From the NCBI GenBank assembly GCA_025602905.1, contig JAHLKI010000029.1:62001-126000 (forward strand): a DNA stretch of 64,000 nucleotides. Direction: 5' to 3'. How positions within the stretch are numbered: the first letter of the stretch is position 1; each line of letters starts with the position of its first letter. The notes under the pieces are model-generated. The model was not told the origin of the DNA, made no database searches, and worked only from the letters and a program-made list of their open reading frames with translations. Positions 14,358 to 64,000 of the stretch are shown one piece after another. The position numbers were made by a program, and so were the translations under genes. Source of the DNA: Phlyctochytrium arcticum. Taxonomy: Eukaryota > Chytridiomycota > Chytridiomycetes > Chytridiales > Chytridiaceae.

Positions 14358-14926
14358 CTATTGTAAAACGAAGTGAGGAAAAGGTCATTAGGCTACCGAA
14401 AACGTACGGTAAACGTACCGTATTGAAAAACTATCTGGGCCTTCCGAACGAGAGCTGTAGGGGACTCGGCGGGGAGTCCAAGGTATTTGCATAGACGTGG
14501 GGCAACATTCGAAAACTGATCCGCAAAGGGAATTTGGACGACGACTTTGTTGATTTTGATAAAAAGGTGACCCGAATCCTGTCCTTTGACTGCTAAATGG
14601 GTTTAGGGGAAAAGGATGGGTCTCACTGTCTCTTCACAAGGGACAGTGAGACCACGGTGCTTCGCACTTGCTGCTTCGGGAGCAGGGTCTGATAGCAAGT
14701 GCGGCTCTATTGACCGTCACCTTGTACATGTTGCAACCACACCGAAAGTCTTTTGGCTTCTTGCCGTCGTTTGAAGAATATAGAGTTTTTATAGATCTAC
14801 TATAGTAGTCGAGGATATTTCATTTATGTGAGATGGCTGTCGAAGAGTGTTCAATAGATAAAATATCGGTAGTCGGTCGCTGTCTGCACACTCACTTGTG
14901 TCAAGATCAGCTGGAAGACAACAATC
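14358..14926. other. Shared upstream region of two divergent genes
   Basis: This stretch separates the minus-strand unrecognised gene from the plus-strand aldo/keto reductase. No ORF stands out. It contains a short inverted repeat: CTCACTGTC near 14621 and GACAGTGAG near 14643. Confidence 0.4.
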
Positions 14927-50987: not shown

Positions 50988-53900
50988 TTATTGAGAAAAA
51001 GGGTAACGAGGCCACTCAAAAAGTTGGGATTCGTATGATACAGGAGGGGGAGGACGCAAAGCCCGATTGCTACTTATAGGCGACAAGCTGGGTGATGGGC
51101 GTGCTGATGTGGATCCTGTGGAAAATGGCGAAGGAAAATGTCATTGCGTCACTATCATTGCATCAAAGTCAAAAATGATGTAATACTCACTGCCTCGGCG
51201 GCCTTGTCCTCTGCTGTTTCGTGGGCGACCTCGACGTCGTTGTCCGCTACCAGATGCCGTGGGTTGAGAAGGATCTTCCAAGACAAAGGTGTACTCTGTA
51301 GTCGCAGATGACGCAACAGAAGATACGTCATCTTCAGCATCATCATGATTTGCGGGATTGGCAATGTCTGCGATATAATGTGGATCACTATGTGGTCATG
51401 TTAGCAGGAAATCAGCAACAGAACTCGTACCTTGTAGGTCGAGCACAGCTTCAAGTCGGTCCAGTTCCTCGCCTTGTCGATCAAACGCGTCTTTGCAATG
51501 TTGTTCCAAATTTGTGGACTCAAGAGTTGGGTATTGTCGGGGAAACCTGTTCCTGACCCACTCATGCTGCATACAAAAGACATTAATAAGGAAACGCTTT
51601 TCATCTGAGTGAATCCAAGCGTCATGATGAATGGTTCTGCGTCGGCCCTCCAGCACCAATTCATCTTCTTTGCCAGTCTTGCAAGATGCAGAGCACCAAT
51701 GCTGGCAGTTGATTCCTCCTTGGATGTCACGCCCCGCTATCACTGCATACGAGCCAAGTCCATGGATAACAGGACATTGTCGGTGGTATTCCCCAGAGAG
51801 GTCGTATTCTTCAATCAGGAAGCGTGCGGAGCGGCGTTTTGCGTTTTTAGGAACAATCTGTTCCAAAATTTCCAGAACTCTCCCGAAAGACCCGTCAGAC
51901 AATCCCACGAAGTCGCCAATTCGTACGCGTATAATAGCATGCGTAACTATCGCGCTTGTCCATCTTTGGTATTGTTGTTGTTCGGAAGAGGGAGCGAATG
52001 TGGTGATTTGATGAGTGAGGGTATTTTGGAAGGGCATTGGTTCTTTGTCCACTTTGAGAGTATACAGGGCTTTGGGAGTTTCATCCTGACTCGATGACAG
52101 ACCTGAGGATGGACGGAAATTAATTGATGATTGCAATAATATTGTGTCAGTGAATCACCTAAGACGCTCCTGACAGTCTCATCCCGAGAAAGATTCTGAA
52201 CGTTTGGTCCGGCGTTAACCCAAGAGGCATTCTCTTCCCAGTAACCTCCACTGATCAGATGACGAATTGTTCGGAACCGGGCAAATCGAATGGACACATC
52301 CTTGGAAGGAGAATGGCGGTTGGTATGGTTGAGTTGGTTGCGGACTATTGGATTGAAACTCTCGAACTTCTCTGATGCATAAAGACGCGGGGGACCAAAG
52401 CGACGAATGTCCTCGATAATGTGAACGAGGGCATGGTACTTGCGACGCGAGAAGATGGCAATATCGATGTCACAGATGGACGCATACATTGCCGTCATAG
52501 CCCTCTGTAGATCGCGAAGGTAGAGCTCCATGTTTGGGATTGATTGCACATAGACTAATAGGAAGACGTCGGCCATGCAGAACCATGCTCTCATCCAACT
52601 TTCTGGCAGAAAGCCGTCGTACGCAAATGGCGCCATTTGGATCCATCGCCGAAAGTCTTTGCCTACGAGCGACCCTCCGTATTGTACCATCTCTTTGCCA
52701 CGAAACGGACGCTGAAACCCTTGCCAGTTGAGAGCATCGACGCGTAAGAGCAGCTCACGTTGCTGTCGATCGGATAGCTTCTTCTGAGATGCGCGTGACA
52801 ACCATTTGATGATACCCAATAATATGGTATGCAGAACCTCCACGGGAAGATCCTGATGGCCACTGAAGGACGGCAAGCGGAAAAGTGGGTTGATGAGATC
52901 CTCATCGCTGCCGAGCGTTTGTCGAAAAGCCGTCGTTTCTTCAACTGTATGTGTTTTGGCATACGTCAACAGTTTTTCAATAGTAGTTTGTGTGAACTGG
53001 CATTTGATACCGGTAACGGTTTGTTGCCTGCGCACTTCAGAAGCATTTCCGATACATGCCTTGTCGAGTTGCTTGACAATCTCCGCCTTGGTCTCTTTCC
53101 AGTTCCGCTGCTCACCAGGCTGAAGGAATCGCATCAATTGGTCCGCGTTGTTCAGCTTTCCCTCAACGGTACATACGCGGCAAAAGCGCGTCCCCCGTCG
53201 AAAGTCAATGGTGGAACATAATTCAGAATGCATGGGATTATCGCCCAAGATGCAGACAACACCTCCTGTCACCAGCACAGGTTCCATTGAAGCTGAATCG
53301 AAAGACCACACACCCATTGCCAACTTGGTGTTAATTGAATCCACTATAGCCTTAGCCATTTCGAGGGCGGAGGCCCTGTTGCTGGTAGCAAGAAAATGTG
53401 TGTGAAAGTCTCGAAACCCTTCCGAAGAGCGGAGTCCGCCCAGTCGCATCTCCCAGTTGTAGAATGGGTTCCATTTCTTTGAGTCGGTGCCGGCCGAGTC
53501 ATCACAGAAGAGGTCAACGGGGGCCATGATGACTCTGTGGCCGTTGGCACGAACTTTGAGGGGATGGGGCTGCAAAATTTCATCCAAAGCTGATTGGGAC
53601 AGAGGAGTGACGGTGTATTCTTCCTCCTCCTCCCGAGTAGAGCATCTCAAAACTCCCCCGATAGGTTTGGCAGTCGGGCAGCGGAGGTCGACTACCTCTG
53701 TCAAATCGTTAATGTTGTAATTGAGCTTGAGGTAAAAAAAATAGTTGTCCTCATCCTCCACCAAACCCGTTCCCTCGGCAAAAAGCTGGCCATCTTGGCT
53801 ATAGAATCGCTCAATTTGGAGCATGAAGTCGTCCTGTGTGCGCACCACGTCTCGGACAAAGATGTGTGATGATCGCACCACAACCATGGGAGCTTGAATT

Positions 53901-54580
53901 GTTTCGTTTTGATGCCATTTACCGGCGTGGTAGATTTCGGAGACTGCATCGTTGCGTTCGGCGTAACACTGCAAATGTTGCATAACAATGGGATTTGCAA
54001 CTTCTTGAGCAACAATGCAGCTGACGTCGTTCATGTAAAAAGGTGTTCCATTGATCGACTTATGCTCATCAACTTGTCCGCCAGTCTGGAAAATACATTT
54101 AGAAATGGCCGTACGTACTCCATTCGTTGTGACAAACCTTGGTGTGTAACTTTGCCAGCAGTTTCTTAATCGCATCAATCGGTGGTAATACCAATCCAAG
54201 TTGTCCTGCCCACCACCAAATCATTTTCAGGACCGCATTTGACAGGGGATGTCGCGGCATGGTCATGAGAATAGCGCAAAGGGCTGTTTTGCGATTGGGG
54301 AATGGAAACCAGTTTGGGTCATCTTTCTCATTCTGGCGAGGGGGTGCATGAGTGGTCATTGGTGGTGGCTGCTCCCACTCAAATGTCTCCTCGTCCCTCT
54401 TCCGGCCGTCCAACTCCTCAGCCTCTGCTTGTAGTCGCGCTCTTTCTGCCTGCTCGCGAAGATAATAAAATAGATTCAAGCCATTCGCTGGCGCAGATGT
54501 TTGGGTGCTCGGATTGTACACGCCCAGGGTCTCCAAATCCACTTCCATCACATCCTCATCCACTTCCATCGGAGAAGGAT
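50988..54580 (-). pseudogene. Plavaka/CMC-type transposase, N-terminus truncated
   Basis: Exons 54138-54580, 52159-54085, 51431-52102, 51191-51367 and 50988-51115, about 1115 codons in frame. The first exon begins at an acceptor (TTTCAG, then PSPMEVDEDVME), so earlier exons are missing beyond 54.6 kb. Landmarks of fungal Plavaka proteins are DPNWFPFPNRKTALCAILMT, the Cys motif after FRRGTRFCRVC, LPVEVLHTILLGIIKWLSRA, and YHALVHIIEDIRRFGPPRLY. A Zn-binding tail (QHWCSASCKTG) and an AT-hook-like RRRGRPRNSRGQGRRG follow. The frame is otherwise intact, which suggests recent activity before the 5' end was lost. Confidence 0.75.
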
Positions 54581-54641
54581 CTGAAATTGTACTATCGTCG
54601 GTAGCTAAATGGTTTTAAAATATTGCAAAAGGACATACATA

Positions 54642-55007
54642 ATGAGCGACGAACTTGCAACCCCAGAATCATTGATACATCCAGAGTATTTGCAACTCAA
54701 CCCAGTATTCAAAGTCGAGTGGTTAGAATCATGCAAGGCGCTCAATACGATAATCAGCGAGAAGCTTTATAGACCACGTTATGCTTCACTGGAGACATAT
54801 CTATTTGAACGATGGAATCAATCTACCTCTAATGGATATCGAGTTTCGAATACGGGAAAAGTTTTGAAAGAGTTGGAGCAAGTATTTTCTCACGCTCAAC
54901 TTCCCACTTCAATACAATTATGTCTTGCACTCAAGAAGCAAGCTGCAACTCGTAGTTTATCAGTTACAGAAGTATGGCGGCTCATTTTCGAACAAGAGAC
55001 AACGTAG
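54642..55007 (+). CDS. Phage-type helix-turn-helix protein
   Basis: A 121-residue ORF from an ATG at 54642; the frame is open to 54609. The sequence WLESCKALNTIISEKLYRPR, then ASLETYLFERWNQSTSNGYR and LPTSIQLCLALKKQAATRSL, has the layout of a DNA-binding module common in phages and plasmids: a helix with ALxxIRxxxLYR, then YxSFExYxxxRWxxSxxxxY. I know this layout from memory and have not searched it. It overlaps the following methyltransferase ORF by 34 nt in another frame and ends in two successive stops (TAG TAA), so the two could be translationally coupled. Its role would be regulation or DNA tethering of the methyltransferase. Confidence 0.55.
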   Translation: MSDELATPESLIHPEYLQLNPVFKVEWLESCKALNTIISEKLYRPRYASLETYLFERWNQSTSNGYRVSNTGKVLKELEQVFSHAQLPTSIQLCLALKKQAATRSLSVTEVWRLIFEQETT

Positions 55008-55786
55008 TAACATCAGAGTTGAATGCCGTATTCGCCGAGACTGAACTAGTATTTCAACTTTCACTTGTTGAACAAGAACCGCTTCCTTCGACACCCGTGT
55101 CACCGCCATCGTCAACTCGCTCGTCTACCCCTTCTGATGGATCTCAATCACCAGCCATTTCACTAAAAAAAAGATTAGGGTGTGAAAACGAATTTAATTC
55201 TCCAAAGTGGCTCATTGAAGCAATTGAGCGTTTCACGGCGCCGGATGGTGTAGATTTGGATCCATGTACGAATACTGAGAGTATTCTGAGGGCGAAACGA
55301 ACATATGGGAATCAACCGGACGGATCATTCATCAATGCGTTGACATTAGAGGATTGGGACGAGTCTAATTGGGTATATTTGAATCCACCCGGAAGCGCAT
55401 TATTCGATCATGAACGAGGACCAAAGAACTGTTCCAATTTGATATCGGCTTTTCTCAAAAAATCATATGAGGAGTTGGAAAAGGGGAATATAAAACGTAT
55501 CATAGGCATTGTACCAGCAGGATCAGCTCGAGGCTGGGGAAGTTTAGTTTATGAGAAGTCATTGACATGTTCAGTCAACAAGAAAGTAAATTGGCAACGG
55601 ACAGCCGCAAGCATGTCAAGAGCGACTAGCAATCCTAAATCACGCAATGCAGGCGATATTCTCTCACGTGTGATATTCTACATGGATAGTGATCCGTCTT
55701 TCCCGTATTCGGATCGATTTGTTGAAGTATTCGGCGAGCATGGATTCATACCCGGCCACAATATGAAATGTTACCACGTAGAATAA
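54974..55786 (+). CDS. Phage-type DNA N-6-adenine methyltransferase (Dam family)
   Basis: 270 residues. The first 60 are a Ser/Pro-rich linker. The catalytic domain follows: EFNSPKWLIEAIERF, the cofactor-binding VDLDPCTN, and the catalytic VYLNPPGS (an N-P-P motif for amino methylation). It ends with RWG-like and FxPG segments (GFIPGHN). This is the compact Dam-type family found in phages and some large viruses, with the order of motifs (DPCT before NPP) typical of it. The expected activity is methylation of adenine in viral DNA at a short site. All visible key residues are intact. Confidence 0.85.
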   Translation: MAAHFRTRDNVVTSELNAVFAETELVFQLSLVEQEPLPSTPVSPPSSTRSSTPSDGSQSPAISLKKRLGCENEFNSPKWLIEAIERFTAPDGVDLDPCTNTESILRAKRTYGNQPDGSFINALTLEDWDESNWVYLNPPGSALFDHERGPKNCSNLISAFLKKSYEELEKGNIKRIIGIVPAGSARGWGSLVYEKSLTCSVNKKVNWQRTAASMSRATSNPKSRNAGDILSRVIFYMDSDPSFPYSDRFVEVFGEHGFIPGHNMKCYHVE

Positions 55787-55823
55787 TGTGTTGTCTTTTT
55801 TTGGTTGAATACAAATAAAGGAA

Positions 55824-56615
55824 ATGAAGCCATTCGTATCATATGTTGGTTCAAAGGCGAAAATCATGAATCACATTGATGCCAAGCTACCACCAGTCAT
55901 AAATCGCTATTTTGAACAATTTGTAGGTGGTGGAAGCGTCCTGTTTCATATAGCAGAAAAGTACCAAGAGAATATAAAGCAGTATTTCATCAATGACAAA
56001 GATGCGAATATGATGAACTTGTACAGCGCTATAAGAGACAACAAGAAAGAATTGCTTGATGAGCTTCAAGAACTGAATACAATACGAGATAAAGAATCAT
56101 TCCAGAAGTTCTTGGCGATATTCAATCATGATGAACTGAATACAACAAAGAGAAGCGCGCTATATTTGTATCTATTGAAACTGTCATTCAACAACAATTT
56201 GAAACACAAGAAAGGTAAGATACAGCCGACGTATTCCGCGAGAAACGCTGCATCTAACATTTACAATACGGAACATATAGAAACGATTGCCACATTTCTG
56301 CAGCAAGTGAATATTTCCAACCTGGACTATACTGCATTTTTCAAACAATTTGAATATGAACAAGATGATTTTGTGTTTCTCGACCCGCCTTACAATGTAG
56401 CTTCTGTGAGAGAATATTACAGCTCGATATTCGACGAAACAGATTACAATGAATTACTAGCCGTATGTGATGACTTGCATAAGAAAGGAATTAACTGGAT
56501 GTTAACATTAGACGCCAATGAGACTCACAAGAAACTGTTTGCCAACTACGACAGACATTCTTTCATTTCAAATGGGAAAAACAAGGATAAGGAAATCATC
56601 ATAACAGATTACTAG
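55824..56615 (+). CDS. D12-class DNA adenine-N6 methyltransferase
   Basis: 263 residues, 37 bp after the previous gene. Motifs are SYVGSKAKIMNHIDAKLPP (binds AdoMet), FEQFVGGGSVLFHIAEKY, FINDKDANMMNLYSAIRDN, and the catalytic FVFLDPPYNV, followed by NWMLTLDANETHKKLF. These are the hallmarks of the D12 class (T4 Dam, DpnM), which methylates the N6 of adenine. It is intact. A second, different adenine methyltransferase directly behind a Dam-type enzyme is unusual and suggests two target sites. Confidence 0.92.
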   Translation: MKPFVSYVGSKAKIMNHIDAKLPPVINRYFEQFVGGGSVLFHIAEKYQENIKQYFINDKDANMMNLYSAIRDNKKELLDELQELNTIRDKESFQKFLAIFNHDELNTTKRSALYLYLLKLSFNNNLKHKKGKIQPTYSARNAASNIYNTEHIETIATFLQQVNISNLDYTAFFKQFEYEQDDFVFLDPPYNVASVREYYSSIFDETDYNELLAVCDDLHKKGINWMLTLDANETHKKLFANYDRHSFISNGKNKDKEIIITDY

Positions 56616-56738
56616 TGTACATGTCAAATGAGAGTAGCTACTGATTTCTCAGGTATCGAAGCTCCGATTGTTGCATTAAAGCAACTAGGAGTAGAATATT
56701 CGCATGAGTGGAGTTGCGAAATCGATGCCAAATGCCGC

Positions 56739-57922
56739 GTTTATAGGAGTTTATGCGGTGCAGCATTGCTGAAACAACATACTTTGGACCTCCGAATTCT
56801 CTCTATATATACATAATTTAGACATGTCGCATGGGTCTTTACGCATTCCCATTTGTATAAAATACCAGAGCTAATCCTTGATCAAGTTTTCTGTTTTGAT
56901 GTGTAGAGTAATTACTTTTTGGTTGATGAATTGAATACATGCTTTTCTTGATTCGATAGCCAGATTTCTTACTCTATATTCGAAAGAGAAAAAGTGCAAT
57001 GCGCAAATCGTAACCAAAACCATCTATTGTAAAATGAAAATCGTTTGATATATATATACCTCAGTCAAGACCATCATCAGGGCAATGTATTTATTTATGA
57101 ACAAAATTCGAGAGTGAATGTTATTGCGCAAATGACCATGCCCAGGGCGATGAGAGAGGAGGCTGGTTTGATGGAGGTAGCATCACTACATTGCCCCATT
57201 CCAATCGATGTAGCACTACATGTTGGTGTCCACGTCTTTGTCGCCGTCGTACTTTCCGCGGTGGTAGTGCTCGCTACGCTCGAACAATGAAGGTCTTCTG
57301 GGGTATGGCATGTGCACCCATAGTATGCAATCCCGCCTGCCAAACACGTTCCATTAGCGGGATAGGCACCGGAAGTAGTAAGCAGTGCACTTTGCTGACA
57401 TCCGGGTCCGCTGTACGAGCGACCCCACATTAGGCCCTCTGCACAAAAGTAGGCGTTGGATTCCTGCATATTTGTAGCGTTGAAACAGGTATTTTGGGCA
57501 AATGCTTGGAGCAATTGATAGGACCCCGTGCAGTTGGGGTGCTGCCATTGATATGCTGCGATGTCCTGACCATTCACGCCGCAGCTGCTAATGATGGCGA
57601 AAAGGTGTACGATTACTGCCGTGTGGAATGTTGCAGGGAGGGTGTTTGAGGTACGCATGCCTGCGTGGGACGTCTGCCGAATGAGTATGTTCTGGAAAAA
57701 AATTTCTCGTTGGGAAATGTTCGCTACACTGTTTAAAACCCTGGCTTGTTCCGAAGCTGCGGAGGGCTTGTAAGTGTTCTGGTCCATGTCTTGTATATGT
57801 GGGGACAGACAATTTCTGGGATATGGGCCCGCTAGGGGCCTGATAACGTAGCGGAAATTTGATGACTTAAGCCATGCACTGTTTCGTAGGTAGCAAAGGA
57901 TTCATTGATGTGACCCTATAGT
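56739..57922. mobile_element. 1184-bp insertion in the C5 methyltransferase
   Basis: Flanked by a 3-bp duplication CGC (56736-56738 and 57923-57925). The ends share a short inverted motif, TATAGG near 56742 and CCTATA near 57915. It contains one minus-strand gene with a signal peptide and is more GC-rich in that gene than the virus-like DNA around it. It has no transposase. It could be a non-autonomous transposon with a captured gene, a host fragment joined during repair, or an unknown insertion element. Confidence 0.6.
57095..57658 (-). CDS. Secreted Cys-rich protein with C-terminal membrane or GPI signal
   Basis: 187 residues from the Met at 57658 (the frame is open to 57787, but that extension masks the signal peptide). 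The N-terminus is a signal sequence with the core TAVIVHLFAIISSCGVNG. The mature part has about twelve cysteines (NCTG, NTCFNAT, AYFCAEGLMWG, GPGCQQS, GTCLAGGIAYYGCTCHTPED). It is followed by a Ser/Thr-rich stalk and a C-terminal hydrophobic segment (SSLIALGMVICAITFTLEFC), as in fungal GPI-anchored wall proteins. It sits entirely inside the insertion, opposite in strand to the interrupted viral gene. No family was recognised. Confidence 0.6.
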   Translation of the reverse strand: MRTSNTLPATFHTAVIVHLFAIISSCGVNGQDIAAYQWQHPNCTGSYQLLQAFAQNTCFNATNMQESNAYFCAEGLMWGRSYSGPGCQQSALLTTSGAYPANGTCLAGGIAYYGCTCHTPEDLHCSSVASTTTAESTTATKTWTPTCSATSIGMGQCSDATSIKPASSLIALGMVICAITFTLEFCS

Positions 57923-58785
57923 CGCAAAATGATACAAGCGAATCATTCACCGAAACATCTGTTTGAGGATATTACGACTCGAGATCATAGTCAGTTACCA
58001 GAAATAGACATCTATGTAGCTGGTTTCCCATGTCAATCATTCTCTGGTCTCAGAAGGCTGAACGAGAGAATACCCGAAAAACACGATTCAATTAGACCCA
58101 ATCTTTCAATTCATTGTATTCAAACGATTCGTTGTACGTCACCCAAAATATTCATTCTAGAGAATGTTCCACGCTTCAAGACGTATATGAAGGGTGAAAA
58201 GTTCAACAATCTGCTTGTAGAGTTAAACAAAGATGACGAATATTCGATTCATCATGCTATTCTGAATACCAAAGATTACGGCATTCCTCAAAATAGACGC
58301 CGTTTGTATATAGTTGGAATACGGAAAGACTTTCAAACGAAACCATTTGAATTTCCCACACCACTATCATCACATCCTCTGACTGAGTTTTTACATGATA
58401 CAACGTTAAACGATTTTACACCAGACAAGTATTCAAAACGACTAGTTCATAGGCTACCCATCGATCACAAAGAAGAGCTCTACGCAGTGAAGCATCGTGG
58501 TGGTGAAGGAACATTTGAACAATGTTCTCCATGTATAACGACGAGTTGTTCCATATTCGTCACGCAATTGAATCGAGACTTGATTCCACGCGAGAAATTC
58601 GAACTACAAGGTTTCTCAGTAATTGATACAAACATTGTAGTATCAGACAGCGTCTTGGCGAAACAGGCTGGAAACACAATGAGTGTCAATGTTCTGAAGG
58701 CATTGTTTGTTTCTGTATTTGATTGTATTCAATGAGACGCATTATGTACCTATCTTTAATAAAACTTTGTTTCTAAAATGTAATA

Positions 58786-58875
58786 ATGGAACCTGTAAAG
58801 ACTCAACCAGAAACTAAACCGAATATCCCAGAAAAGCCAGTGAAACCAAAGACTAAGATTGTGACATTTGATTAG
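58786..58875 (+). CDS. 29-residue Pro/Lys-rich ORF
   Basis: A short ORF between the methyltransferase and the tRNA: MEPVKTQPETKPNIPEKP, then a basic VKPKTKIVTFD. Pro/Lys spacing with no hydrophobic core suggests a disordered peptide. It is kept because it fills the gap in an otherwise gapless block and starts just after a poly(A)-signal-like AATAAA at 58759. Confidence 0.35.
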   Translation: MEPVKTQPETKPNIPEKPVKPKTKIVTFD

Positions 58876-58909
58876 ATGATTTTATTTTTTTGTAAAGAAT
58901 AGATATAGC

Positions 58910-58980
58910 GCGTTAATAGTTAAATGGTATAACTTCTGACCTCCAATCACATATCCAGGGTTCGATTCCCTGTTAACGCA
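58910..58980 (+). tRNA. tRNA-Gly(UCC), with C at position 33
   Basis: A 71-nt cloverleaf: acceptor stem GCGTTAA/TTAACGC (perfect), D arm GTTA/TAAC, anticodon stem TCTGA/TCACA with one mismatch, loop CCTCCAA, variable loop TATC, T arm CAGGG-TTCGATT-CCCTG, discriminator A. Anticodon TCC reads GGA. Position 33, nearly always T, is C. No CCA is encoded. The tRNA lies in the virus-like block directly upstream of the fibre gene, in the same orientation. Confidence 0.85.
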
Positions 58981-59029
58981 AATTGTGTCAACAGAGCTTT
59001 CTTATTTCATTTGATTTCTTATAAGTAAT

Positions 59030-62000
59030 ATGATGTCCGGTATTAATAGCAGAAATGCCTCAGGTATTCGGACGCTAGATAACACCAATATACAGAACAG
59101 CTTCATAAGCGGAATGTTAAAGGGCGACGAATACTCCAGTATAGATGTTGCAAAAGTATCAAATACTAATGGCGAAATGAAGGTAAATTCCGTGTCATCT
59201 GAGACACCGATTTCCACCACTCTCTCAGAGGGGACGGCAACCATTTCTTTAGATATCGATCCTCATCGATTGAATATAAATCAAGAAGGTCGTCTAACCA
59301 CAATTGATCCTTCATATTCGGTTCCGCTTTCATTTGAAGAAAATGATGCAAACAATGAACGGTCCAAAAGTCTTTTGATTGATTCTGAGACATTATTCGT
59401 TAATCAAGAGAATCAATTGCAGGCCAAGAAACAAAAGCCGGAACTAAATAGTCCTCTTTTTTACAATTCCGATGATGAAGTTGAGTTGCGTTACGCCTCT
59501 CATATGGAAGATGCAGAATCTATACTGGACGGTGATTTGAATCTATTTGCAAAAGGGTTGAGTCTCAAAATTTCTGATCCATTTTCATTCAATTCCGTAA
59601 ACAGTCATCGTCTCTCACTGAATATAGATGATGATACCATGGATATCGATAATGGAAAGTTGAAGGCGCGTATTCCCGACAAACTTTCATTCCAGTACCC
59701 ATTAGATGAAATCGACAATACAGTTCGTCTGAATATTGATCAAGAGACACTATATATAGACGATGATAGATTATATGTCAAGAAACAAGATGTTTCCCAA
59801 GCGTTGAAGGGCGCTGGTGCGATTAGTGTTTACAAAGACATAACCGAATCTATTGATGGATCGCTTGTAAAACTCGAGGTCGACCACCAAAATTTTCAGC
59901 AAAAGGGAAACAAGTTAGCATTCCGTAGCACCGGTATCGGCCAGGTGCCGTATGATTCAGGACTGTCATCTTTGAATCGCACCAGTGATTTTACGTATTC
60001 AGAGACACTGAATCAGTTAAGTGTGGGACATGTGAATCTATCACCAAATAGCAATCCAAGTGACTACGAGGCGACAACTGCCGAATACGTGAAAGGGGTT
60101 TACCAGGGCGCTGGTCCACTAGTGATTACTAATCACGTAGTCGAATTGAATACTGACGCTAGTTTAGCTGTTGATCAAAACTTGAATCTTGGTGTGAATC
60201 CAAGCGCGATTGTCAATGGTTCGAGTATTCGAGTGGACAGCAACGGCCGAATCTCAAGTGGCCTTTTATTTCAACAGAGTAACGGCCTTGGTATTCGAAA
60301 TGGTAACGATGTGTTTCTAGATATTCAAACCCAAGGGAATCTTGAATACGATGGCTCAGTATTGAGCGATACAAGAACATTCAGCAATGGTATTCATGAG
60401 AATACAAGCCATGAAGTCAGCCTGGATCTTACAGTATCAGGTGGGCTGCAAATGGATAGCACCAAGACGAATATTAAAGAAGTCCTGACATGTAGTAACG
60501 GTATAACTAGAGTTGGTAATGACTTTCGAGGCTCGTATTCAGCTGGGCAGAATATTCAAATATCAGGCTCGACTATATCATGCACATATCAACCAGAAAC
60601 TGAGCAGCCTTATGTGGGGGGTAATGGTATTTCAGTTGTTGGCAAGACGATTTCTAATACGCTCAGTATTCTTCCAGGCGTTGGTATCATTGTCAGCGGT
60701 ACGCCTGGAGGTCCTTATACGATTTCAAGTATCGACAATCTACAAACCAAAAGAACAGCAGAAGATCCGACAGAAACTCAAACTGATGTCAGTGAACCCA
60801 AAGTGTACAAAAGTGGATCAGGCTCGACGGTGGCTAGTAGCGGCGGTCTTATCGGCGGATTATCGGGTCTCGGCGGTATATTCAATATGGCAGGGAGTGT
60901 AGCAGCTGTACCTGGTTTATCCTCGTCGGCGTTGGGGGCGGCCGCTCAACTCGGTGGTGCTCTAACTGGAGGTAGTCTTGTTGGCGGCTTTATTTCAATA
61001 TTCGGTCATGAGCGCAAACAAGAGAAGGATGAAGAGGGAAACGGCTTGTACAATCCCGACAATACGCCCAAATTGGAACCAGGGAGCAACGTTGTGATAT
61101 ACACTGCTCCTGACGCACTGAACTGCCCAAGTACAAGAATATTATTCGATACTCCACCTTCTTGTAGTTATTTGGGTATCGACAGCGAATTCAAAGAGCA
61201 AGCAATAAACCTCGATATGTTGAGGCAATATTACTCTCAGGTGATTCAACCAGAAACAGTAAACTTAACAGGATCTTTGCTTGCTCCTTTATCCGATCAA
61301 TTAGAATTGACATCTTCAATTGTATCGGCACTAGAGACAAGTTTGAACAATGACTATCAGACAAAAATTACAAGTTCCAACAAGATCCCGTATTCTAATA
61401 TTTCATCACCACCCGATTTGAGTCTTTATTTGAATCGGAATATAGACTTGGGAAACATCAACACTTCAATTGCAACCAAACAGAATATAATATCAGCATC
61501 GAATCGTCTGGATTATAACCTACTTTCGAATATTCCAAATTTAGCGCTGAAACAGGATCTAATTACAAGTAGCAACAAAATTGCTTACAGTAATATTTCA
61601 GGAACTCCAGATCTCAGTCCGTATCTTACAAGAACCACGGATTTGAATACGATTAACGCATCGATTGCTACAAAGCAGGCTTCACATTCCAATTTGACAA
61701 GTCTTTCAAGTGCAGTGCCATCGCTACCAAGTCTTTCTATTAGTTCAAATATCGAAATTACAAACACGACATCATCAAGTAGTATCTATTGGACATCTGG
61801 ACCGACCATCGCTAGAGCGCAACTAGGGGGGCATTTTGTAAGCAATTCAATTAGTGGAGATTTTATTATTAGGTCAGGCGGCGGCGCCACTGCAAACAAT
61901 TCTCTGAGATTATCGGTCAACGGTACATCTAGCGCTTTGGATATTCTGTCTAGTGGATCAGCTCAAGTTAATACGGCAACTGATTCGTCAAATTCGACTA

Positions 62001-62827
62001 CAGGAAGTTTCATTGTATTAGGCGGTGTTGGAATCGTAAAAAAACTTTATGTAGGAAATGATATTTATAGCAACAATTTGAAAGTTGCGACAGAGACTTT
62101 CGTTAATACACAGATTGCAGCGATTCCCTTGGCAAATTACACTTTACTGTCTACATACAATACTCGACAAACGGCAATTGATTCACGGTTCACTCCAATA
62201 GAGACGAGACAATCTCAACTGAAAGCATTATCGAATCTTGATATTCTCGATTTATCGACTGCCTATGTTAATGGTATTCTTCCTATTGCAAATGTGAATA
62301 CAAGTACACTTCAGCCTATCATCACCTCGAGTAATGCGGCATCAATCAAAGCAACATTGGGTCTATCTTCAAGTGCATCAACTGGCCAAATAGATTATGC
62401 GAATATTCTCAACAAACCGGCATTTGGTACACTATCATTGAAGAATAATGTCGATTTGTCAACATCTGATGTAGTAGGAAATTTAGATTTTGCCCGGATT
62501 ATCAATGTTCCCTCATATGTCTTGACAAGTGAGTACAATACCAGAATATCACAACTTGGATCTTTGGCAAATAAATCAGCTGTCGACCTGTCTACTTCAG
62601 ATTCAATAGGGCAACTTGATTTTGCAAGACTTAGCAACGTGCCGAATTACGTTGCAACTAGCGATTACAATACTCGTATTACACCCATTGAAACTAAATT
62701 GACTGGATATGACACTTCAATAACGTCCAAACTTCTCACACTGAATTTAGGTACTGGTACTCAACCTCTTGCTTTTACATTAACGCTCCCTCAACAGCAA
62801 CAGTCGGAAATGCTGTTATTTCCATGA
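59030..62827 (+). CDS. Giant fibre protein, N-terminal part, adenovirus-like shaft repeats
   Basis: 1265 residues. About residues 70-300 and 360-420 consist of repeats with the pattern L-x-(I/V)-D-x-x-x-L-x-(I/V)-(N/D)-x-x-x-x-L, for example LSLNIDDDTMDIDNGKLKAR and VRLNIDQETLYIDDDRLYVK, as in the triple beta-spiral of adenovirus fibre shafts. Residues about 600-660 form a Gly/Ala/Ser-rich hydrophobic segment (GGLIGGLSGLGGIFNMAGSV). The rest has tail-fibre-like repeats: SNKI(P/A)YSNIS, (S/N)IATKQ and a TGSFIVLGGVGIVKKLYVGN module known from phage and algal-virus fibres. The frame ends at 62825-62827 after a probable one-base shift. The following ORF continues the same protein. It is probably the virion attachment fibre. 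Confidence 0.7.
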   Translation: MMSGINSRNASGIRTLDNTNIQNSFISGMLKGDEYSSIDVAKVSNTNGEMKVNSVSSETPISTTLSEGTATISLDIDPHRLNINQEGRLTTIDPSYSVPLSFEENDANNERSKSLLIDSETLFVNQENQLQAKKQKPELNSPLFYNSDDEVELRYASHMEDAESILDGDLNLFAKGLSLKISDPFSFNSVNSHRLSLNIDDDTMDIDNGKLKARIPDKLSFQYPLDEIDNTVRLNIDQETLYIDDDRLYVKKQDVSQALKGAGAISVYKDITESIDGSLVKLEVDHQNFQQKGNKLAFRSTGIGQVPYDSGLSSLNRTSDFTYSETLNQLSVGHVNLSPNSNPSDYEATTAEYVKGVYQGAGPLVITNHVVELNTDASLAVDQNLNLGVNPSAIVNGSSIRVDSNGRISSGLLFQQSNGLGIRNGNDVFLDIQTQGNLEYDGSVLSDTRTFSNGIHENTSHEVSLDLTVSGGLQMDSTKTNIKEVLTCSNGITRVGNDFRGSYSAGQNIQISGSTISCTYQPETEQPYVGGNGISVVGKTISNTLSILPGVGIIVSGTPGGPYTISSIDNLQTKRTAEDPTETQTDVSEPKVYKSGSGSTVASSGGLIGGLSGLGGIFNMAGSVAAVPGLSSSALGAAAQLGGALTGGSLVGGFISIFGHERKQEKDEEGNGLYNPDNTPKLEPGSNVVIYTAPDALNCPSTRILFDTPPSCSYLGIDSEFKEQAINLDMLRQYYSQVIQPETVNLTGSLLAPLSDQLELTSSIVSALETSLNNDYQTKITSSNKIPYSNISSPPDLSLYLNRNIDLGNINTSIATKQNIISASNRLDYNLLSNIPNLALKQDLITSSNKIAYSNISGTPDLSPYLTRTTDLNTINASIATKQASHSNLTSLSSAVPSLPSLSISSNIEITNTTSSSSIYWTSGPTIARAQLGGHFVSNSISGDFIIRSGGGATANNSLRLSVNGTSSALDILSSGSAQVNTATDSSNSTTGSFIVLGGVGIVKKLYVGNDIYSNNLKVATETFVNTQIAAIPLANYTLLSTYNTRQTAIDSRFTPIETRQSQLKALSNLDILDLSTAYVNGILPIANVNTSTLQPIITSSNAASIKATLGLSSSASTGQIDYANILNKPAFGTLSLKNNVDLSTSDVVGNLDFARIINVPSYVLTSEYNTRISQLGSLANKSAVDLSTSDSIGQLDFARLSNVPNYVATSDYNTRITPIETKLTGYDTSITSKLLTLNLGTGTQPLAFTLTLPQQQQSEMLLFP

Positions 62828-63942
62828 ACAATGCTACATCTAACTGTCAATGGGGTATGTACCACGCAGGGCAAAATGGTACAGGAGGTTTGCCAAACGG
62901 CTCACTGGGCTTCTACAATTTCAACCTATCATCTCATATTCTTCAATTAAGACCAGATGGAAATGTTCATGTTGTAAAATCACTCTATGTGGGTACCGAC
63001 ATATTCGTTGCTGGCAATTCATTAATTACATCTCTTGGTAACAAACAGCCTCTTCATGCAAACTTGACAACACTTTCAAGTGCAACACCCACGTTACCTA
63101 CTCTAATAACAACAGGAGATGTGACGATAAACGGGTCGTATCTAAAGATTCCGAATACAGGGTTCAGTCAAATCAACCTGGGAAATATGTACATCAATTG
63201 TAGCCCCGCACACGAGAGGGGGGATCTCCATCTATATGATACCATCACGAATCATAGATTCATTGGGTGGTATTCAAACTCACTGACGTTGTCTCTACGA
63301 CCCATAGGAGGCGCAGGCAAATTGTATTCCGACGCTCTGATAGATGTTGGTTTCAATTCTGTCGCACCAAGTATCATACAAAGCAATAATACTGGATCAG
63401 TTCTCAAAGTCAAGAACCGTCATGCAAGTGGATATTCTGAAGTAAGATTCTTCAATAACAACGAAACTTCCAATGCTGCTATTGGTATCGGCAATACGTC
63501 TACAGCGGCTCCTCATAAGGATACTTTATATCTTCAATGCGCAAACGGTCTGTATTTGGATAGCCCAGATGGTGGAAAAATTACAAGACCAGTTGTTTCG
63601 AATATATGGGATAATGCCAGTACGGGTCAGAATGCTACAATAGCCAACGCTTTTTCAAAGGTTTTTACTACAACACGAACTTTACAAGTTTATAATGGAT
63701 CTCTAGCCATCTATTGTAATCAACTCAGCGCAAATATTACCTTTTCATGCCGAATTGACGGTAACGTTGTAAAAACATGGTATCATAGTTTCAACACAAT
63801 GAACAATATTATTAGATTACCATTTGATTTTTTTACCTCCGGACTTGCATTGGGGAATCATACGTTCACACTTACTTGGACTGGAACAAGTCTGTCCTTT
63901 GATGGTTTTTGTCGCATCGACCTCCAAATGCTAGAATATTAA
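62824..63942 (+). CDS. Fibre protein, C-terminal part in a shifted frame
   Basis: 372 residues from an ATG overlapping the previous stop (ATGA). The frame is protein-like even upstream of this ATG (APSTATVGNAVISMNNATS), so the break is a frame change near 62760-62820 and not a true gene start. It repeats modules of the upstream ORF (VVKSLYVGTDIFVAGNSLIT versus KKLYVGNDIYSNNLKV; LTTLSSATPTLPTL versus LTSLSSAVPSLPSL). It ends with a beta-rich C-terminal domain (TFSCRIDGNVVKTWYHSFNT, LGNHTFTLTWTGTSLSFDGF) that would suit a receptor-binding head. No coding feature follows before the window ends. Confidence 0.65.
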   Translation: MNNATSNCQWGMYHAGQNGTGGLPNGSLGFYNFNLSSHILQLRPDGNVHVVKSLYVGTDIFVAGNSLITSLGNKQPLHANLTTLSSATPTLPTLITTGDVTINGSYLKIPNTGFSQINLGNMYINCSPAHERGDLHLYDTITNHRFIGWYSNSLTLSLRPIGGAGKLYSDALIDVGFNSVAPSIIQSNNTGSVLKVKNRHASGYSEVRFFNNNETSNAAIGIGNTSTAAPHKDTLYLQCANGLYLDSPDGGKITRPVVSNIWDNASTGQNATIANAFSKVFTTTRTLQVYNGSLAIYCNQLSANITFSCRIDGNVVKTWYHSFNTMNNIIRLPFDFFTSGLALGNHTFTLTWTGTSLSFDGFCRIDLQMLEY

Positions 63943-64000
63943 ACCTCGTTATATATCAGCTCGAAGACTTCAATACAAGTGTTTCTATTGCAACCCAAAG

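Follow-up and report, generated by a model that had tools for sequence, protein, structure and literature searches.

A probable remnant of an integrated polinton-like virus in a chytrid genome, and the palindromic, loop-inverting ends of its relatives

What is a block of virus-like genes in the genome of a zoosporic fungus, and what kind of ends did its DNA have? The question arises in the chytrid Phlyctochytrium arcticum, where a 64,000-nucleotide stretch of DNA (the window; C29:62001-126000 of the 31.5-Mb, 91-contig assembly) carries AT-rich, co-oriented and intronless genes from position 54614 rightward. An earlier note on this DNA had described the genes in these terms, and both the open reading frames (ORFs) and a comparison of GC fractions in 1-kb steps bear it out: values are 0.37-0.45 across the block and 0.42-0.55 to its left, with a single exception of 0.48 inside the block where foreign DNA interrupts a C5 cytosine methyltransferase gene. 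The block is very likely the right-hand part of an integrated, truncated and inactivated polinton-like virus (PLV) of the Spizellomyces punctatus group, and its relatives have ends that suggest a linear virus DNA closed by hairpins. An integrated large double-stranded DNA (dsDNA) virus of a zoosporic fungus had been proposed; the integration, the dsDNA virus and the host stand, and "large" does not, as the two relatives whose genes were read are polinton-like and measure about 25 kb.

The virus group, previously held to be unassignable, can be assigned through the capsid protein of these relatives, which is 38-44% identical to proteins of Spizellomyces, Powellomyces and Gaertneriomyces. In particular, the capsid protein of element C26 is 43% identical over its full length to S. 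punctatus SPPG_02195, likely the capsid of the S. punctatus PLV, whose group was published in 2021 by Bellas and Sommaruga (PMC7805220). Comparison of pieces gives 25.1 kb for the C26 unit and 25.2 kb for the C18 unit (about 177965-203196), the latter with terminal inverted repeats (TIRs) of ~1.05 kb that are 89% alike. Each holds a double-jelly-roll capsid protein of 416 aa and an A32-like packaging ATPase (PF04665, 7.8e-10) in one TIR-bounded unit of a size inside the 14-40 kb expected of such a virus, together with a Prim-Pol and D5_N helicase protein, a fibre and a response-regulator-like protein (PF00072 above cut-off in C18). Both also encode an rve-chromodomain integrase (in C18, PF00665 at 8.1e-12 and Chromo at 9.4e-14) and a tyrosine recombinase of 483-490 aa with Cre/Xer/TopoIB-like fold matches; protelomerases are not among the fold matches listed for it, which excludes nothing. 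C26 further has a D12 and a C5 methyltransferase as well as an unassigned protein of 292 aa, and C18 has a Dam-like protein. Among the proteins scanned, which cover part of the ORFs of these two elements, protein-primed PolB was not found, and 20 of their proteins gave no Pfam match to an HUH endonuclease, a family whose divergent members could escape such a scan.

The relatives are numerous. Searches of the own genome returned 57 matches for the capsid protein, 26 of which span the query without a stop (from residue 5 or earlier to residue 415 or later), 40 for PrimPol, 16 for the tyrosine recombinase and 103 for the integrase, many of the last being retroelements or chromodomains. These matches are not counts of elements, since some elements yield several and at least two yield mirror pairs. 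Two elements are >99.9% identical across several kilobases. Gene content was read through for C18 and C26; other units, measured by their two placed tips, extend over 24.9 (C4, C40), 26.0 (C3), 26.8 (C15), 27.0 (C23), 33 (C41), 16.8 (C6), 15.8 (C1) and 1.7 kb (C25). The shortest is a mini-element (C25:139562-141298) with both terminal palindromes and the 5-bp duplication GAGAG, and is probably a non-autonomous derivative. The presence of copies with target-site duplications (TSDs) in many contigs of the assembly refutes a bacterial contaminant.

The window copy is cut off at its left. A 500-bp query spanning the left border was matched against the own genome, and its transposon side recurs at nine other places. 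Seven of these matches run to query base 413-414, six of them with 98-100% identity and one with 84%, while two diverged matches end 65 bases earlier, at base 348-349; its viral side recurs at five other places, which start at base 414-415. Because the transposon copies stop and the viral homology starts at the same base, the abrupt border at 54613/54614 is the terminus of a multicopy transposon, and the left viral part is absent from the window. The sudden start that had been noticed is thus a transposon's end, and not a viral one. A misassembly at this junction appears unsupported, given that sequence from either side recurs elsewhere and that further copies of the transposon stop at this very base. 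To the right, the viral block continues to C29:128290 (window coordinate 66290), which is 2.3 kb past the window, and leaves a remnant of 11.7 kb (window 54614 to 66290), 9.4 kb of which lie within the window. Extending the contig rightward, as had been suggested for finding capsid, ATPase and integrase genes, therefore meets the end of the element after 2.3 kb; these markers are found in the sister copies. The right tip is a terminal palindrome (C29:128222-128290), adjoined by a diverged terminal-repeat protein (42% identity) and followed by retroelement-like integrase sequence. The first protein right of the window (115 aa) is 47% identical to C26. A response-regulator receiver-like protein at C29:126333-126725, unexpected for such a virus, is 81% identical in C26.

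Within the window, tblastn with 21 proteins of C18 and C26 as queries (E 1e-4) matched the Dam-like, D12, C5 and fibre proteins, all right of 54.6 kb, and did not find capsid, ATPase, integrase, recombinase or primase. The pieces of the window copy are 42-97% identical to C18/C26 proteins, which, together with the terminal palindrome, ties this right-hand part to the PLV group. The window copy is defunct: it lacks the left half and with it the capsid genes, and it has frameshifts in two genes and an interruption in a third.

The ends of the relatives carry the remainder of the argument. Self-complementary sequence forms the tips of C18, C26 and the window copy, and another 20 end stretches include 15 with a palindrome of 58-72 bp free of mismatches. 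It is missing in the stretches from C8, C3, C1:1756k, C1:1343k and C46; the palindromes of C8 and C3 lie outside the fetched stretch and were found by a pattern search. That search of the genome (CRGTGCATA-N(16-46)-TATGCACYG) returned 45 sites, and the reversed control pattern returned none. Thirty-three sites could be assigned to ends of elements: 11 elements account for 22 of them as tip pairs, and adjoining terminal-repeat homology placed the other 11. As the pattern itself fixes nine outer bases per side, only the inner stem counts as evidence. Outside the central positions, the inner stems contain 3 mismatches in 643 pairs, and 42 of the 45 are perfect; they also vary, with 21 distinct stem starts (first nine bases). 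Across five aligned stems of one type, 3 of 27 pairs have both partners altered and no pair has a single partner altered, and the covariation score was reached in 1 of 500 shuffles. Five tips fold as single hairpins at -30 to -45 kcal/mol. Moreover, every one of the 11 elements read at two complete ends, the 1.7-kb mini-element among them, has an exact 5-bp TSD directly outside its TG...CA (C1:1308k and C3:1361k have one flank in common and were counted as one event), and the palindrome is part of the moving unit.

Further, ends that otherwise agree differ in the orientation of their loops. Read inwards, the right ends of C23 and C45 are identical over 211 bases except for five loop bases, which are exact reverse complements. 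The centre base is the sole difference between the left and right ends of C26 over 399 bases, between the right ends of C18 and C41 over 400 and between the two ends of C41 over 85; the two ends of C23 are identical over 306, and both ends of the mini-element are in the same loop state. Orientations are distributed 4:4 and 4:3 in the two tabulated end types (15 ends, not all independent), with flip and flop forms both present among the integrated copies. Overall, pairing is kept, loops invert and units move with 5-bp duplications. A scan of IMG/VR with the palindrome motif gave at least 120 matches, and among the 80 examined the inner stem was mismatched at a median of 70%; one near-palindromic match in these 80 (L100) stands at the start of a phage-like contig. 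The motif matches look like chance, and no relatives of the capsid protein, ATPase or PrimPol turned up in scans of IMG/VR.

It is an even call whether chytrid PLVs have true hairpin telomeres and no protein-primed polymerase, with loops that flip at replication and an integrase that uses the palindromic junction as its attachment site. Several observations weigh against the explanation by a hairpin-ended PLV, or against parts of it. All of the evidence comes from integrated copies, with no extrachromosomal DNA, particle or closed end among the data, and the centres of the palindromes may have turned over within the chromosome of the host once the element was inserted. Twelve of the 45 palindromic sites are tied to no element, the ends of more distant element groups lie mostly outside the set read, and the right end of C1:1736-1756k is broken inside the palindrome and has no visible TSD. 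The three double changes were also reached by 54 of 500 shuffles, in a small set of five related stems. A dedicated hairpin resolvase or nickase could not be recognized among the element proteins scanned, the penton or minor capsid gene is a guess from position, and the window copy, having no left end, has no TSD of its own to check. An account that uses some of these points takes the palindromes as integrase recognition sites only, each made of two inverted end-motif copies, with loops that flip after insertion by cruciform extrusion in the host chromosome and a virus that has no hairpin telomere. The ends read repeatedly carry an outer motif TGNNAC(A/G)GTGCATA or something close to it, which an integrase site would predict, and the restriction of the data to integrated copies suits this account equally. 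However, the inner stem differs between lineages and yet stays self-complementary, with three double changes and no single one in the five stems; as stems vary but stay paired, it is the pairing that is kept and not the sequence. In addition, ends that are identical over 85-400 bases differ in loop orientation alone, in the near-equal states given above. We regard integrase sites without hairpin telomeres as the less likely alternative.

The hairpin-ended PLV also has to be weighed against two accounts of what the elements are. Elements that are domesticated or behave purely as transposons, without a virion stage, would explain the many copies, the mosaic copies described below and a 1.7-kb mini-element with palindromes and TSD, all of which point to movement within the genome; against this, 26 of the 57 capsid matches are full-length without a stop and the ATPase and fibre frames are open in C18 and C26, which suggests, as far as open frames can, selection for a particle at some stage. 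A loss of the virion stage is accordingly doubtful. An integrated large or giant dsDNA virus, either of the Nucleocytoviricota or mriyavirus-like, is less probable still: only ~25 kb lie between the TIRs and TSDs, an rve integrase is present, and the HUH endonuclease that all mriyaviruses have, according to PMC11253617, had no match among the 20 proteins scanned.

If the ends are those of a hairpin-ended virus, its DNA would be linear and its ends either hairpins or self-priming terminal palindromes, and copying through the hairpin would create palindromic junctions with a flipped loop. The rve-chromodomain integrase would cut the palindromes at their outer TG...CA, inserting the unit with a 5-bp stagger, the methyltransferases would modify viral DNA, and the A32-type ATPase would package genomes into a double-jelly-roll capsid with fibres in a presumed virion stage. 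The window copy alone would be capable of none of these steps. The tyrosine recombinase is only a candidate for hairpin processing; its 16 matches are far fewer than the 57 for the capsid protein, and palindromes likely also occur without it.

The elements share with the S. punctatus PLV group a homologous capsid protein, integration in a chytrid, TIRs and a packaging ATPase. They differ from it in the many copies within P. arcticum, several capsid lineages, a very large fibre, flip/flop terminal palindromes and, in C18 and C26, a tyrosine recombinase in addition to the rve-chromodomain integrase. PMC7805220 reports chitinase in 52% of the S. punctatus PLV group; here it is in no mapped unit: the genome has six GH18 matches, none inside any unit with both ends mapped, and the nearest are ~18 kb (C23) and ~21 kb (C10, where element limits are unmapped) from element genes, so that chitinase was rejected as an element marker. 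Polintons/Mavericks (PMC12747079, PMC12220804) likewise have an rve integrase, packaging ATPase, double-jelly-roll capsid, long TIRs and a short TSD; in contrast, the chytrid elements have a PrimPol-D5 helicase, palindromic tips and a TSD of 5 bp rather than 6 bp, and protein-primed PolB was not found among the C18 and C26 proteins scanned. TIRs with self-complementary tips in flip and flop forms are known from poxviruses, African swine fever virus and chlorovirus PBCV-1 (PMC8956199, PMC12085832), whereas here they belong to a 25-kb integrating virus, known from integrated DNA alone, with stems that are fully paired except for the loop. Mriyaviruses (PMC11253617) resemble the elements in their small genome, double-jelly-roll capsid like that of nucleocytoplasmic large DNA viruses and primase-helicase; they differ in their HUH endonuclease, not found here, in their size (35-45 kb against 25 kb) and in the integrase, which is present here and unmentioned in the main text of that paper.

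The main text of PMC7805220 contains none of "hairpin", "palindrom", "fiber" or "fibre", and no report of PLV hairpin ends was found in the literature searched (PMC7805220, PMC10120064, PMC12220804, PMC4642659, PMC11253617, PMC11071308, PMC10640383, PMC5294986, PMC10675990, PMC12085832, PMC8956199 and PMC12747079, with supplements and most subscription journals outside this scope). PMC10120064 leaves out fungi, and according to a 2023 abstract (PMC10640383) fungi have no known dsDNA virus. With at least 24 full-length capsid frames and near-identical elements, recent activity is plausible in a named species, P. arcticum. If the hairpin reading is true, hairpin telomeres would extend beyond large DNA viruses to small PLVs, which are proposed to be kin of the ancestors of those large viruses. 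Flip/flop ends would connect how small integrating viruses replicate with how poxviruses and other large DNA viruses do so, and would provide a simple sequence signature to seek in other PLVs and in virophages.

The copies belong to several lineages. Full-length capsid identity to C26 falls in four bands (89-100, 50-52, 42-46 and 22-28%), and the P. arcticum copies are not one clade in the capsid tree, where one groups with Powellomyces at 100/98 (a midpoint-rooted tree of 15 rows, with good support on 4 of its 12 inner branches and with one long branch). By comparison of their sequences the copies are also mosaic: C23 and C26 are 51% identical in capsid protein and 41% in recombinase, yet 100% in PrimPol (C23:404211-406742 and C26:383342-385873), and the integrases of C23 and C18 share 75% identity. 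The PrimPol identity would reflect a recent exchange between lineages. Some copies have mirror-image arms. Both ends of C40:7178-32109 carry a palindrome and a TSD, and the element's 500-bp arm samples are identical 4.3 kb in and unmatched 7.8 kb in; in C1:1324344-1343380, which has no right palindrome, samples are identical 5.7 kb in from the left tip. Other mirror-image pairs are C9:368425/377915, C9:389714/405395, C18:111503/132181 and C10:4397/19874. Fold-back replication products or assembly errors are possible sources.

Table 1. Features of the block and its left neighbour, in window coordinates.
Feature	Position	Strand	Remarks
Right end of multicopy transposon, outside the virus	51947..54613	-	Long ORFs 51947-54175 and 54099-54569
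Dam-like (phage-type) methyltransferase gene	54614..55786	+	Split by frameshift into 132-aa and 270-aa ORFs
D12-class adenine-N6 DNA methyltransferase, intact ORF	55824..56615	+	PF02086 2.6e-32; TIGR00571 above cut-off
C5 cytosine methyltransferase, first 37 codons	56628..56738	+	97% identical to C26 residues 1-37
Non-viral DNA (~1.2 kb) interrupting C5 gene	56739..57922		No second match in genome
C5 cytosine methyltransferase, remainder	57923..58735	+	PF00145 2.9e-42; 85% to element C26
tRNA-Gly (TCC)	58910..58980	+	Rfam 61.4 bits
Fibre gene, first frame (1265 aa), adenovirus-fibre-like repeat	59030..62827	+	PF06536 27.9 bits, cut-off 22.7
Fibre gene, C-terminal part in second frame (372 aa)	62824..63942	+	Single frame in C18 and C26

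The three methyltransferases listed by the earlier note are present (Table 1), with the C5 gene in two pieces and the Dam-like gene frameshifted. The Dam-like protein matches phrog_111 (6.8e-9), and its PF05869 match reaches only 0.08, below cut-off. Its two ORFs are two frames of one 388-aa ORF in element C18 (88% and 89% identical); the shorter had been taken for a separate helix-turn-helix protein, a family of which none matched. The D12 methyltransferase is 73% identical to its C26 counterpart. The DNA that interrupts the C5 gene contains a minus-strand ORF (57095-57808) with a weak CfaA_B_C match below cut-off and, again, no second genome match. The tRNA-Gly was correctly predicted; it is confined to the window's own locus among 23 loci scanned and was rejected as a gene common to the elements. 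The adenovirus-like fibre holds as a family match, above cut-off in the window, C18 and C26 over one short stretch of ~30 residues, and not as an intact gene, being broken by a frameshift near 62.8 kb where C18 and C26 read through in one frame (1677 and 1694 codons). As a query, the fibre protein finds 101 matching stretches in the own genome, more than chance.

On the host side of the window, ARAGORN places a tRNA-Val (CAC) of 99 bases, possibly intron-containing, at 14596-14694, which is absent at the Rfam gathering threshold. Positions 1-960 form a long pyrimidine- and TTG-rich low-complexity stretch with an AT skew of -0.56, probably a repetitive host region.
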